Below, one piece after another: positions 39,051 through 44,320 of a stretch of 44,320 nucleotides of DNA. A program made the position numbers and the translations under genes. The stretch comes from Actinomycetota bacterium. GTDB taxonomy: Bacteria > Actinomycetota > Thermoleophilia > Gaiellales > F1-60-MAGs149. Location: positions 1 to 44,320 of the forward strand of contig CANJXE010000003.1 in assembly GCA_947478745.1 (NCBI GenBank), written 5' to 3'. The notes below the pieces were generated by a model. It did no database searches, was not told where the DNA came from, and saw only the letters and a program-made list of their open reading frames with translations. Every line of letters begins with the position of its first letter. Within the stretch, counting starts at the first letter, position 1.

Positions 39051-39803
39051 TTACGCTTGAGCCTGCAGCAATGCGGCCATGCGCGACGGGTCGTCGAGCA
39101 GCGCGCGACCGACGACCGCGCCGGCGCATCCGAGCGCGCGAGCATCCCGGACATCGGCGGGCGTGGTCACCCCACCCGCGGCGATCACGGCCACCCCGGG
39201 CACCGCCGCGAGCACGCGCTCGAGCAGCTGGAGGTCCGGACCGCCGAGCGTGCCGTCGCGATCGATGCCGGTGATCAGCAGCGTCTCGACGCCGAGCTCG
39301 ACGACGGCGCTTGCCGCGATCTCGACGGCGACCCCGGCGTCCTCGACCCAACCGTCGACGCGCACGGTCCCGTCGCGGCTATCGAGGGCCACCGCGATGG
39401 CGCGACCGTGACGGGTCACGAGACGCTCGAGCTCGTCCGGCGAGCGCAGGGCCATCGTGCCGATCAGCACGCGGTCGACGCCCAGGTCGAGCAGCGCATC
39501 CACCGCTGCCGCAGAACGGAGCCCGCCGCCGACCTGGAGCACGGCGCCCGCCGGCTTGCCCGCAGCGAGGGCGGCGATGACGGAGCGATTCGGCTCAGCG
39601 GGCAGTCCCGTGCGTGCGGCATCGAGGTCGATCACGTGCAGCGCGGTGGCGCCGGCCTCCCACCCCATGCTCGCCCGCACGCAGGCGTCGTCCAGCTCGT
39701 TGGTGAGGAGCTGATCGAACTGCCCGTGCAGGAGGCGCACCGCTCGGCCGTCGATCAGATCGATGGCGGGATAGAGGCGGAAGGGATCGGCGCTGGTAGT
39801 CAT
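39051..39803 (-). CDS. hisA: ProFAR isomerase (1-(5-phosphoribosyl)-5-[(5-phosphoribosylamino)methylideneamino]imidazole-4-carboxamide isomerase)
   Basis: FRLYPAIDLIDGRAVRLLHGQFDQ...VLQVGGGLRSAAAVDALLDLGVDRVLIGT...LLITGIDRDGTLGGPDLQLL...VIAAGGVTTPADV. Confidence 0.95.
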   Translation of the reverse strand: MTTSADPFRLYPAIDLIDGRAVRLLHGQFDQLLTNELDDACVRASMGWEAGATALHVIDLDAARTGLPAEPNRSVIAALAAGKPAGAVLQVGGGLRSAAAVDALLDLGVDRVLIGTMALRSPDELERLVTRHGRAIAVALDSRDGTVRVDGWVEDAGVAVEIAASAVVELGVETLLITGIDRDGTLGGPDLQLLERVLAAVPGVAVIAAGGVTTPADVRDARALGCAGAVVGRALLDDPSRMAALLQAQA

Positions 39804-39804
39804 T

Positions 39805-39822
39805 GTGTTAGCATGCTAACAC
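39805..39822. promoter_or_regulatory. Perfect 18-bp palindrome GTGTTAGCATGCTAACAC between divergent hisA and yerC; candidate TrpR-like/YerC operator and divergent promoter
   Basis: Fills the 20-bp gap between the two ATG codons, centred at 39813.5; contains TAGCAT on both strands. Confidence 0.75.
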
Positions 39823-39823
39823 G

Positions 39824-40138
39824 ATGACCAAGACACCTGACACGAACGACTGGCGCACACCGTCGGTCGAGCAGCTCGCCGACACGCTCGTGTCGATCCA
39901 GGATCGCGAGTCGATGCTGGCCTTCCTGCGCGACGTCTGCTCGCACAACGAGCTGTCGACGCTGGCGCAGCGCCTCGACGTGGCGCGTCTCGTCGATGCC
40001 GGCATCCCCTACGCCGAGATCGCCCGTCGCCTCGGTGCGTCCACCGCCACCGTCACCCGCGTGGCGCAGTGGGTCCGGCACGGCGAGGGCGGCTACCGCT
40101 CGGTGCTGGACGCCGAGGCGGAGGTCCCCGGCGCATGA
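39824..40138 (+). CDS. yerC: YerC/YecD-family TrpR-related DNA-binding protein
   Basis: TPSVEQLADTLVSIQDRESMLAFLRDVCSHNELSTLAQRLDVARLVDAGIPYAEIARRLGASTATVTRVAQWVRHGEGGYR (TrpR-like HTH). Confidence 0.9.
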   Translation: MTKTPDTNDWRTPSVEQLADTLVSIQDRESMLAFLRDVCSHNELSTLAQRLDVARLVDAGIPYAEIARRLGASTATVTRVAQWVRHGEGGYRSVLDAEAEVPGA

Positions 40139-40995
40139 TCAACGGCATCCTGCGCATCGCCGTCCCCTCCAAGGGGCGCTTGGCCGAGCCGACGCTGACG
40201 CTGCTCCGTGCAGCCGGCCTTCCGATTCCGTCCGATGATCGGCGCCTGCTGGTGCCGATCCCCGACCAGAACGCCGAGATCCTCTTCGCCCGCACCGATG
40301 ACATCCCCACGCTGATCCGCGACGACGCCGCCGACGTCGGCGTCGCCGGCTCCAATCAGCTGCTCGAGCACGGCAGCGATGGCGTGGAGGAGCTGACCCG
40401 GCTCGGCTTCGGCGCCTGCAGCCTCGTGCTGGCCGTCCCCGGCGACTCGCCGATCGTCGGCGTTCACGAGCTCGCCGGGCGCCGCATCGCCACCTCCCAC
40501 CCGGTCGTCCTCCGGTCCTATCTGGCCGAGCAGGGCATCGCCGCCGAGGTGGTCACGCTGACTGGCTCGATCGAGCTCGCCCCGATGATCGGCGCCGCCG
40601 AGGCCGTCTGCGACCTCGTCTCGACCGGCGAGACACTGCGGCAGAACGGATTGCGGCCGATCGAGACGATCCTGCGCTCCGAGGCGGTGCTGCTGACGGC
40701 CGCCAAGCGCCGCGATGCCGCCGGGGTTGACGTGCTCCGCACTGCGGTCGAGTCCGTGCTCGCAGCGCGTCCCAAGCGCTACCTCATGCTCAACGCCCCC
40801 GACGGCGCCCTCGACGCGATCATCGCGCTGCTGCCCGGCATCGACGCGCCCACGGTCCTGCCGCTGGCGCGCTCCGACATGCACGCCGTGCACGCCGTCG
40901 TCGATGCAGCAGATCTGCCGCGACTGCTTCATCCTCTCAAGGAGGCCGGAGCCTCCGGTCTCCTCGTCCTGCCGATCGAGCACCTGATTCCATGA
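40135..40995 (+). CDS. hisG: ATP phosphoribosyltransferase
   Basis: LRIAVPSKGRLAEPTLTLLRAAGLPI...ARTDDIPTLIRDDAADVGVAGSNQLLE...EAVCDLVSTGETLRQNGLRPIETI. Confidence 0.95.
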   Translation: MINGILRIAVPSKGRLAEPTLTLLRAAGLPIPSDDRRLLVPIPDQNAEILFARTDDIPTLIRDDAADVGVAGSNQLLEHGSDGVEELTRLGFGACSLVLAVPGDSPIVGVHELAGRRIATSHPVVLRSYLAEQGIAAEVVTLTGSIELAPMIGAAEAVCDLVSTGETLRQNGLRPIETILRSEAVLLTAAKRRDAAGVDVLRTAVESVLAARPKRYLMLNAPDGALDAIIALLPGIDAPTVLPLARSDMHAVHAVVDAADLPRLLHPLKEAGASGLLVLPIEHLIP

Positions 40996-42695
40996 CCGAA
41001 CTCGACATCCCCTGGATCCGCCCCGAGCTGGCCCAGCCCTCTCCGTACCGCTGGCAGGAGGGGATCCCGGCCGGCGACGTCGCACGCTTCGACCTCAATA
41101 CGCTGCCGCTCAACCCCTCGTGGTGGCCCGGCATCGCCCGCACCATTGCCGCCCAGTCCGTCAGCTCGTATCCCGAGGCCGACTACGCGCCGCTCAAGCG
41201 GGCGATCGCCGGCTACCTCGGCATCGATCCCACCTGCGTCGTCCCGACCGCCGGCGGCGACGAGGCGATCCTCCTGACCGCCTGGCTGGCGCTGGGTCGT
41301 GGCGACCGCGCCGTCGTGGGACGTCCGACCTATCAGCTGCACGCCAACAGCGTGCGCATGACCGGCGCCGAGCTCGATCTCGTCGATCCGCTGCCGGGCC
41401 CGACGCTCCGCCTCGATCTGGCGACGATCGCGGAGAAGGCCAAGGGCGCCCGCCTCGTCTGGCTCTGCTCGCCCAACAACCCGACCGGCGAGGACATTCC
41501 CGCTGACGTGATCCGCGAGATCAGCGCCAACTGCTCCGGCCTCGTCTGCGTCGATCAGGCCTACCTCGAGTTCGGCGGCGCGACGGACCATCTCCCCCTG
41601 CTGGCGGAGCTGCCGAACCTCGTCTTCATCCGCACGTTCTCCAAGGGCTGGGGCATGGGCGCGCTGCGGGCGGGCTACGCGATCGCCAATCCGCTCGTGG
41701 CCGGCGCCATGGATGCCCTGCGTCCGCCCGGCTCGCTGTCCACCGGTTCGGCGCTCGGCGCCGAGCTGGCATGCGCGCACGCCGACACGATGCGGAGCGA
41801 CGCGGCCAACTACCGTGCCGAGCGCGAGCGGTTCAGCGCCGGCCTGCGCGAGCTCGGTCTCGACCTGATCGGCGAGGCGGGCAACTTCGCCTGCGCGCGC
41901 ATTCCCTGGTCGGGCGACGAGCTCTTCGCGAAGCTCGCGCCTCAGGGGCTGATCGTCCGCACCTTCGGCCACGAGCCGCTGCTCGCCAATGCCTTCCGCG
42001 CGTGCGTCTCGCTGCCCGCCGACAACGATCGCCTGCTCGCCGCCCTCGCCGACCTGCTGGCCAAGCCCGCGCCGGCACCCGCCGACCCGCTGGTCGGCAC
42101 CAGCACCTTCGGCCGCGGTGCGCTGATCGAGCGCCGGACCAAGGAGACCGACATCCGCCTGCGCACCACGCTCGACGGCAGCGGCAGCGTCTCCGTCGCC
42201 ACCGGCGTCGGCTTCCTCGACCACATGCTGACCGCGCTCGGGCACCACGCCCTGCTGGACTTGGACCTGACCTGCACGGGCGACACCGACATCGATCCGC
42301 ACCACACCGTCGAGGACTGCGGCATCGTCCTCGGCCAGGCGATCGACGCCGCCCTCGGCAACCGCGCCGGCATCCAGCGCTTCGGCGATGCCTCCGCCCC
42401 GCTCGACGAGGCGCTGGGCCGCGCCGTCGTCGACTTCTCCGGGCGCGGCTCGAGCACGGTGCGCATCGCCTTCAGCGGCACGACCATCGGCGAGCTGCCC
42501 ACCACGCTGATTCCCCACCTGATCGACTGCATCGCCGTCAACGCCCGAGCCACGATCCACGTCGAGGCCAGCGGCGAGGACGACCACCACGTGGCCGAGG
42601 CGGCCTTCAAGGCCCTCGCCCGAGCGCTGCGTCAGGCGTGGGCGATCGACCCGCGCCGTGGCGCCCAGATCGCCTCGACCAAGGGCTCGCTCTGA
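40992..42695 (+). CDS. Fused histidinol-phosphate aminotransferase (HisC) - imidazoleglycerol-phosphate dehydratase (HisB)
   Basis: HisC half: YPEADYAPLKRAIAGYLG...CSPNNPTGEDIP...FIRTFSKGWGMGALRAGYAI; HisB half: RRTKETDIRLRTTLDGSGSVSVATGVGFLDHMLTALGHHALLDLDL...DPHHTVEDCGIVLGQA...EDDHHVAEAAFKALARAL; one uninterrupted ORF. Confidence 0.92.
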   Translation: MTELDIPWIRPELAQPSPYRWQEGIPAGDVARFDLNTLPLNPSWWPGIARTIAAQSVSSYPEADYAPLKRAIAGYLGIDPTCVVPTAGGDEAILLTAWLALGRGDRAVVGRPTYQLHANSVRMTGAELDLVDPLPGPTLRLDLATIAEKAKGARLVWLCSPNNPTGEDIPADVIREISANCSGLVCVDQAYLEFGGATDHLPLLAELPNLVFIRTFSKGWGMGALRAGYAIANPLVAGAMDALRPPGSLSTGSALGAELACAHADTMRSDAANYRAERERFSAGLRELGLDLIGEAGNFACARIPWSGDELFAKLAPQGLIVRTFGHEPLLANAFRACVSLPADNDRLLAALADLLAKPAPAPADPLVGTSTFGRGALIERRTKETDIRLRTTLDGSGSVSVATGVGFLDHMLTALGHHALLDLDLTCTGDTDIDPHHTVEDCGIVLGQAIDAALGNRAGIQRFGDASAPLDEALGRAVVDFSGRGSSTVRIAFSGTTIGELPTTLIPHLIDCIAVNARATIHVEASGEDDHHVAEAAFKALARALRQAWAIDPRRGAQIASTKGSL

Positions 42696-43302: not shown

Positions 43303-44051
43303 TGCTGCGCCGTCGCATCATCCCGTGCCTCGACGTCTCCGGCGGGCGCGTGGTCAAGGGCGTCGAGTTCGTCAACCTGCGCGATTGCGGCGAGCCGATC
43401 GAGGCCGCCCTGCGCTACGCCGAGCAGGGCGCCGACGAGCTCTGCTGGCTCAACATCACCGCCGGCGACGAGGCCTGGCACGAGCTGCTCGAACAGGTGG
43501 CCGGCGCCGGCACCCGCATCGACGTGCCGCTGACCGTCGGCGGCGGCATCTCCGACGAGCTGCACGTGCGCGACCTGCTCAGCGCCGGCGCCGACAAGGT
43601 CTCGATCAACAGCGCGGCCCTCGACCGTCCCGATCTGATCACCGAGTGCGCCGAGCGCCACGGCTCGCAATGCATCGTCGTGGCGATCGATGCCCGGCGC
43701 ACCGGCGACACCTGGGAGGCCGTGGCCTCGGGCGGCCGTCGCTCCACCGGGCGCGATGCGGTCGAGTGGGCCGCCGAAGCCGTCGCCCGTGGGGCCGGCG
43801 AGCTGCTCGTCACGAGCATGGACTCGGACGGCACGCAGCAGGGCTACGCCCTCGAGCTCTACGAGCAACTGCTCGACGAGGTGTCGGTGCCGATCATCGC
43901 CTCGGGCGGCGCCAGCTGTCCGGCGGACATCGCCGACGTCCTGCAGCTCGGAGTCTCTGCCGCGTTGGCCGCCAGCATCTTCCACGATGGCCTACACACG
44001 GTCGAGGAGGTGAAGCGCGCATGTCGGGAACGGAAGCTGCCGATCCGCTGA
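43302..44051 (+). CDS. hisF: Imidazole glycerol phosphate synthase subunit HisF
   Basis: [54 protein letters not shown]...LTVGGGIS...KVSINSAA...[19 protein letters not shown]...IIASGGA. Confidence 0.95.
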
Positions 44052-44320
44052 GCCTCGACGGCGAGCCCCGCTTCGACGGGGACGGCCTGATCCCCGCGAT
44101 CTGCCAGGACGCCGTCGACGGTTCGGTGCTGATGCTGGCGTGGATGAACGCCGCTGCGCTGGAGCGCACGCGCACCACGCGCCATGCCTGGTTCTGGTCG
44201 CGCTCGCGGCAGGAGCTGTGGGAGAAGGGCGCCACGAGCGGCAACGTGCTGACCGTCCAGGAGCTCCACCTCGACTGCGATCAGGATGCCCTGCTGCTGC
44301 TGGTCTCCCCCGCCGGACCC
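44021..44320 (+). CDS. hisI: Phosphoribosyl-AMP cyclohydrolase, N-terminal part (truncated by window end)
   Basis: [84 protein letters not shown], open through position 44320; overlaps the hisF 3' end. Confidence 0.93.

Follow-up and report, generated by a model that had tools for sequence, protein, structure and literature searches.

A palindrome between divergent hisA and hisR genes in Gaiellales as a predicted HisR operator and bidirectional core promoter

HisR (YerC) is a TrpR-family histidine co-repressor with regulons in Firmicutes, Coriobacteriales/Eggerthellales, and Proteobacteria (Ashniev et al. 2022, PMC9413887). HisR of the Firmicutes member Ruminococcus gnavus binds 20-base-pair (bp) palindromes in vitro, and this binding is stimulated by histidine, an effect that has been published for HisR of Firmicutes alone (PMC9413887). 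The Actinobacteria of that study are 22 Coriobacteriales/Eggerthellales genomes, where hisR is never clustered with his genes, and its searched text contains no mention of HisR from Acidimicrobiia or Thermoleophilia. TrpR operators follow a published rule by which 8 bp separate the half-sites (PMC9413887, citing structural work). Published bidirectional promoters share -7T/-11A, +1A, and -18T (PMC10268837). The subject here is a 20-bp gap between divergent hisA and hisR in an Actinomycetota bacterium (Thermoleophilia, Gaiellales). It lies in a stretch of 44,320 nucleotides (the window; contig CANJXE010000003.1 of assembly GCA_947478745.1).

With good confidence, the gap is predicted to serve a HisR-controlled histidine divergon as operator and as bidirectional core promoter at once. 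It contains a perfect 18-bp palindrome, GTGTTAGCATGCTAACAC, centred between the two start codons, and the whole module at 39801-39826 reads CAT-T-GTGTTAGCATGCTAACAC-G-ATG. Its parts, with the two genes that it separates, are as follows.

39051 to 39803, minus strand: hisA, 250 amino acids, the divergent target gene
39801 to 39803, minus strand: CAT, the hisA start codon, followed by T at 39804
39805 to 39822: palindrome GTGTTAGCATGCTAACAC, predicted HisR operator, core TA-GCATGC-TA (basis: sequence, conservation, one site per genome)
39809 to 39814, plus strand: TAGCAT, predicted -10 hexamer of the hisR-his operon, with TGT before it
39813 to 39818, minus strand: TAGCAT, predicted -10 hexamer of hisA, with a TGT extension
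39824 to 39826, plus strand: ATG, the hisR start codon, preceded by G at 39823
39824 to 40138, plus strand: hisR (yerC), 104 amino acids, TrpR-family regulator with recognition helix ASTATVTRV (TIGR02531, 7.8e-21; PF01371, 9.7e-21)

The two TA steps of the palindrome core are 8 bp apart. The original prediction had described start codons 20 bp apart with an equidistant perfect palindrome, TAGCAT on both strands, and CATGCT with A at -11 and T at -7, counting the A of each ATG as +1. It had also noted that neither gene has room for a Shine-Dalgarno sequence. All of this is borne out, the gap being too short for a Shine-Dalgarno ahead of either hisA or hisR. Rarity of the palindrome was rejected as evidence, as about 0.95 perfect palindromes of 18 bp are expected per 44 kb from a first-order Markov simulation. 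The palindrome is unsurprising by count; its position and conservation make it real. An extension into the flanks, GTCAT...ATGAC, was dismissed as incidental because it is not kept in congeners.

The source genome is an incomplete assembly of 1.65 Mb. Its congeners are labelled Thermoleophilia, Gaiellales, or unclassified actinobacteria, and many originate from lakes, judging by isolate name. Conservation of the palindrome in relatives that keep the divergent genes, proposed earlier as a check, holds within the genus: all 12 genus genomes in which hisR was found have a gap of exactly 20 bp with the palindrome at its centre. The identical gap length also means that the hisA and hisR start-codon calls agree across these relatives. 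Within the CAT...ATG module, 22 of 26 columns are invariant in the 12 genomes, compared with 19/60 for the adjacent hisA codons and 8/60 for those of hisR. The half next to hisR is fully invariant, and all varying positions fall in the hisA half.

A genome-wide scan, which had been suggested as a way to define the regulon, finds the 16-bp core exactly once in each of the 12 genomes, always at the hisA/hisR gap. The reversed control pattern has no occurrence in the same genomes. No further HisR site was found in the genus within one mismatch of TGYTARCATGYTARCA, and the regulon appears to consist of the single hisA/hisR site. Being unique per genome, the site is a clean assay target. In two congeners, hisD is separate from the his operon (G003:C10:76008-77204 and G001:C4:96938-98137), and their fetched loci hold no match to TANNATNNTA around it; hisD was not found in the source genome, which is incomplete.

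The palindrome could instead act in RNA: a hairpin with a 7-bp stem and a CATG loop, in either mRNA or in both, would sequester the start codons or attenuate transcription. Both strands do fold better than shuffled sequences (z about -3), but such folding is expected of any DNA palindrome. Differences among congeners are one-sided, with no compensatory changes, and some relatives carry direct 8-bp repeats in place of the palindrome, e.g., TATCATGCTATCATGCTATCATGC, which fold differently. The region has no Rfam match to a T-box, a his leader, or another known RNA element. An RNA element is thus a very unlikely explanation.

The hisA<-site->hisR-hisG layout extends to other families of the order, being present in the majority of its HisR-bearing genomes, and is shared by most loci labelled Acidimicrobiia. 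Loci with the labels Acidimicrobiaceae/Acidimicrobiales and other actinobacteria carry it too. Close to the hisA start, 98 of 105 HisR-bearing loci have TA-N6-TA (20 expected by shuffling) and 71 of 105 have TANNATNNTA (0.8 expected). Neither occurs there in any of 20 HisR-lacking genomes of the class; these controls belong to other orders and have hisA as an operon gene downstream of hisH. Linkage and conservation over more than 100 loci make the palindrome a probable HisR operator. Binding by some other regulator, with hisR a mere passenger of the operon, is hardly credible: hisR is the immediate neighbour of the site in about 100 loci, site and hisR co-occur, and the 8-bp TA spacing fits TrpR/HisR operators (PMC9413887).

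Genomes of the same order that lack HisR proved unusable as a promoter control, since hisA is also missing from them. In the order, 38 genomes were counted in which hisA has a clear match (E < 1e-19), and all 38 are also listed with hisR. The listed hisR-lacking genomes have no hisA, and the one match among 20 tested (G044) is hisF. Given this co-occurrence of hisA and hisR across the order, the histidine pathway and its regulator seem to have been acquired and lost jointly. Many genomes of the order (G023, G026, G029, G033, G034, and others of f3/f4) have no hisA, hisF-like match, or hisR, which suggests histidine auxotrophy in part of the family. Six records labelled Bifidobacterium breve, Acidobacteria, Chloroflexi, or Saccharibacteria (L057, L072, L108, L110, L111, L121) carry an actinobacterial-type his divergon, and their labels or bins are probably wrong.

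The protein encoded by hisR is supported as a HisR-family regulator by profile comparison. It scores 74.3 bits against TIGR02531 (YerC/YecD; cut-off 42.2) and 74.1 bits against PF01371 (cut-off 27). Its 26.6 bits against TIGR01321, the trp operon repressor TrpR, fall under the cut-off of 67.25. Structural relatives in the PDB are 3g1c, 3kor, and 3frw. As in the HisR family, the gene is linked to histidine genes and a palindromic site of about 20 bp lies upstream of his genes. The original prediction called this protein a repressor acting at the palindrome. Family membership and a probable operator, the latter from comparison, support that view in part; its description of such proteins as poorly characterised is overtaken by published work (PMC9413887). 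Among hisA-linked HisR proteins, 108 of 109 have a T-V/I-T-R recognition helix. Most HisR proteins unlinked to hisA have T-I-S-R, as in the Firmicutes structures. A tree splits off the unlinked/Firmicutes group (96/93) and is poorly resolved elsewhere. By these sequence features, the window HisR is assigned to a distinct branch with a TrpR-like TVTR recognition helix.

Across loci, the operators share an 8-bp periodicity. TA steps are spaced 8 bp apart 177 times (24 expected) and 16 bp apart 82 times (20 expected), and the six bases at the centre prefer G-C-A-T-G-C. The window operator is the simplest form, one dyad TA-GCATGC-TA. In many relatives, at least two units overlap, e.g., TAGCATGCTAAAATGCTA (L014, L015) and TATCATGCTATCATGCTATCATGCTA (L029), and Acidimicrobiia-like loci frequently carry TAGCGTGTTAGCATGTTAGCAT. 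Such arrays may bind tandem HisR dimers. In one genus, at L033 (G046:C13) and also at L035 and L036, the palindrome takes in both start codons, CATGTTAATATGTTAACATG, and the gap is 14 bp. Upstream of hisR genes unlinked to hisA (L200-L208, L210), runs of TA at 8-bp steps exceed one palindrome, e.g., TTAAAATAATAAAGAGTTAATT. Because of these longer runs, the 20-bp HisR sites in the literature may each belong to a tandem array.

The operator also carries overlapping predicted extended -10 elements (TGtTAGCAT) on its two strands. The leaderless promoter signal of the genome was measured in 444 kb, made up of the window and 20 stretches of 20 kb (400 kb), with 239 genes. The signature that is known for leaderless genes in Actinobacteria, TANNNT ending in a T at -7 (PMC3160421), precedes 24 candidate starts, compared with 0-4 at other offsets. 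At the divergon, the last T of each TAGCAT is at -10 from the ATG, so a 3-nucleotide leader is predicted (ACG-AUG and ACA-AUG). The predicted start of hisR is A39821 (leader ACG) or A39824, and that of hisA is 39806 (leader ACA) or 39803. The position 3 nucleotides before each ATG is the most likely predicted start; the ATG itself is also possible and would rely on the weaker CATGCT hexamer, which ends at -7. With the TAGCAT option, each strand has A at +1, T at -7, A at -11, T at -12, TG at -15/-14, and T at -18. The -10 elements with a shared core, -7T, -11A, and +1A on both strands are the sequence pattern of a bidirectional promoter.

The original prediction had both transcripts leaderless from the A of each ATG. 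The best fit in the genus is the 3-nucleotide leader instead. The leaderless offset does occur in relatives: TAGCAT stands at -12..-7 before hisA, and sometimes hisR, in several Thermoleophilia families, and before hisR in most Acidimicrobiia-like loci. The further claim that the operator overlaps both core promoters is supported by comparative sequence data. In sum, the earlier interpretation was largely right and is not new in principle.

Alternatively, the palindrome would be a HisR operator only, with each promoter located within the opposite gene, further upstream. HisR would then block elongation or overlapping promoters, and TAGCAT would be mere half-site sequence. A TANNNT-like sequence does arise automatically from TAG half-sites, and the -10 offset is rare in the genome, with 4 cases including hisR against 24 at -7. 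No -35 consensus was seen at the divergon, although none was seen in the 24 leaderless cases either. Longer transcripts, having no Shine-Dalgarno, would have to begin translation within a strong hairpin. Moreover, in most Acidimicrobiia-like loci the last TAGCAT precedes the hisR ATG by exactly the distance of a leaderless start. Promoters further upstream are considered unlikely.

In the favoured mechanism, with operator and core promoter combined, a HisR dimer would bind GTGTTAGCATGCTAACAC via its TAG/CTA half-sites, with histidine as probable co-repressor. The same bases would serve as a pair of extended -10 elements that face each other, one TGTTAGCAT per strand. Because these elements are built from operator bases, the bound dimer would cover both promoters. 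It would exclude RNA polymerase in both directions and turn off hisA and hisR-hisGCBHF(IE) together, and the repression of hisR itself would amount to autoregulation. At low histidine, HisR would leave the site. RNA polymerase could then load in either orientation and produce leaderless or near-leaderless mRNAs from 0-3 nucleotides before each ATG. The fullest version makes one mirror-symmetric 18-bp element both operator and bidirectional core promoter. One HisR dimer and one RNA polymerase would compete for this dyad, and the single site of each genome would exert all-or-none control of both (near-)leaderless his transcripts. The 8-bp arrays of relatives would bind tandem HisR dimers as TrpR does, tuning repression. 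The chance that this version holds in full is about even.

Several points weigh against the combined operator and promoter. The hexamer in the genus ends at -10 rather than at the canonical -7, which leaves the exact start uncertain. Operator and -10 constraints overlap, so conservation is unable to tell the two apart. HisR-lacking control genomes have no promoter at hisA for a trivial reason too, as hisA is inside the operon. The window site agrees with the Firmicutes/Coriobacteriia consensus cacTTTAnnnnnnTAAAgtg at 7 of 14 positions and with the proteobacterial HisR motif at 10 of 14. What it shares with cacTTTAnnnnnnTAAAgtg is just TTA-N6-TAA plus one end base, short of a match to that consensus. 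HisR operator motifs are described as lineage-specific, so this mismatch concerns sub-type and not family membership. Finally, in helix 2, where histidine is proposed to make contact, the residues are FLRDLC here and FFEDLC in the Firmicutes-type branch, and the ligand could therefore differ from histidine.

The remaining genes of the divergon follow hisR on the plus strand up to the contig end.

40135 to 40995, plus strand: hisG, overlapping the hisR stop codon (ATGA; TIGR00070, TIGR03455)
40992 to 42695, plus strand: hisC-hisB fusion, 567 amino acids
42658 to 43302, plus strand: hisH (TIGR01855), start position approximate
43305 to 44051, plus strand: hisF (TIGR00735), start position approximate
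44021 to 44320, plus strand: hisI or hisIE, truncated at the contig end, as suggested by HisIE after hisF in congener G003

The joining of hisC and hisB in one protein of 567 amino acids is seen in the genus at 40992-42695 of the window and at 7433-9136 of L170.

If the prediction is true, HisR control of histidine synthesis extends to Thermoleophilia and Acidimicrobiia, where genetic tools are scarce and for which no published account of such control was found. The locus would also be a minimal genetic switch, with operator, both promoters, and both translation starts within 26 bp. The series from single palindrome to 8-bp tandem arrays would be a natural one on the side-by-side binding of TrpR-type dimers.

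The locus has likenesses to three described systems. It shares regulator family and the histidine pathway with published HisR regulons, and the TA steps of the Firmicutes consensus cacTTTAnnnnnnTAAAgtg are also 8 bp apart. Unlike in those regulons, hisA and hisR are divergent, the operator is predicted to be fused with both -10 elements, the motif is TA-N-CATG-N-TA rather than cacTTTAnnnnnnTAAAgtg, and the recognition helix is TVTR rather than TISR. With TrpR and the trp operators of enterobacteria it shares the fold, the TA steps 8 bp apart in TAG-N4-CTA, and the 20-bp pattern TGT..TAG....CTA..AC. Equivalents of Ala80, Thr81, Thr83, and Arg84 are present in the window HisR (by-eye alignment, TrpR numbering from PMC9413887). 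Most tryptophan-contact residues of TrpR are not conserved in HisR (PMC9413887). The window site fits 9 of 16 positions of the TrpR consensus, and its targets are his rather than trp genes.

Like the bidirectional promoters of Warman, Grainger and colleagues (PMC10268837, PMC12825309), the gap has one predicted symmetric -10 region for both strands. Their commonest form has starts 18 bp apart, whereas the TAGCAT pair predicts 15 bp; pairings at 18 bp, 39824/39806 and 39821/39803, also fit. Here, in contrast, the symmetry is shared with the predicted operator of a repressor, and pathway enzymes are encoded on both transcripts. No description of operator, both promoters, and divergent his genes in one layout was found in the literature searched. 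The regulator family and the pathway are known; new here are the operator sequence, the recognition helix, the divergent layout, and the predicted coincidence of the operator with two -10 elements.
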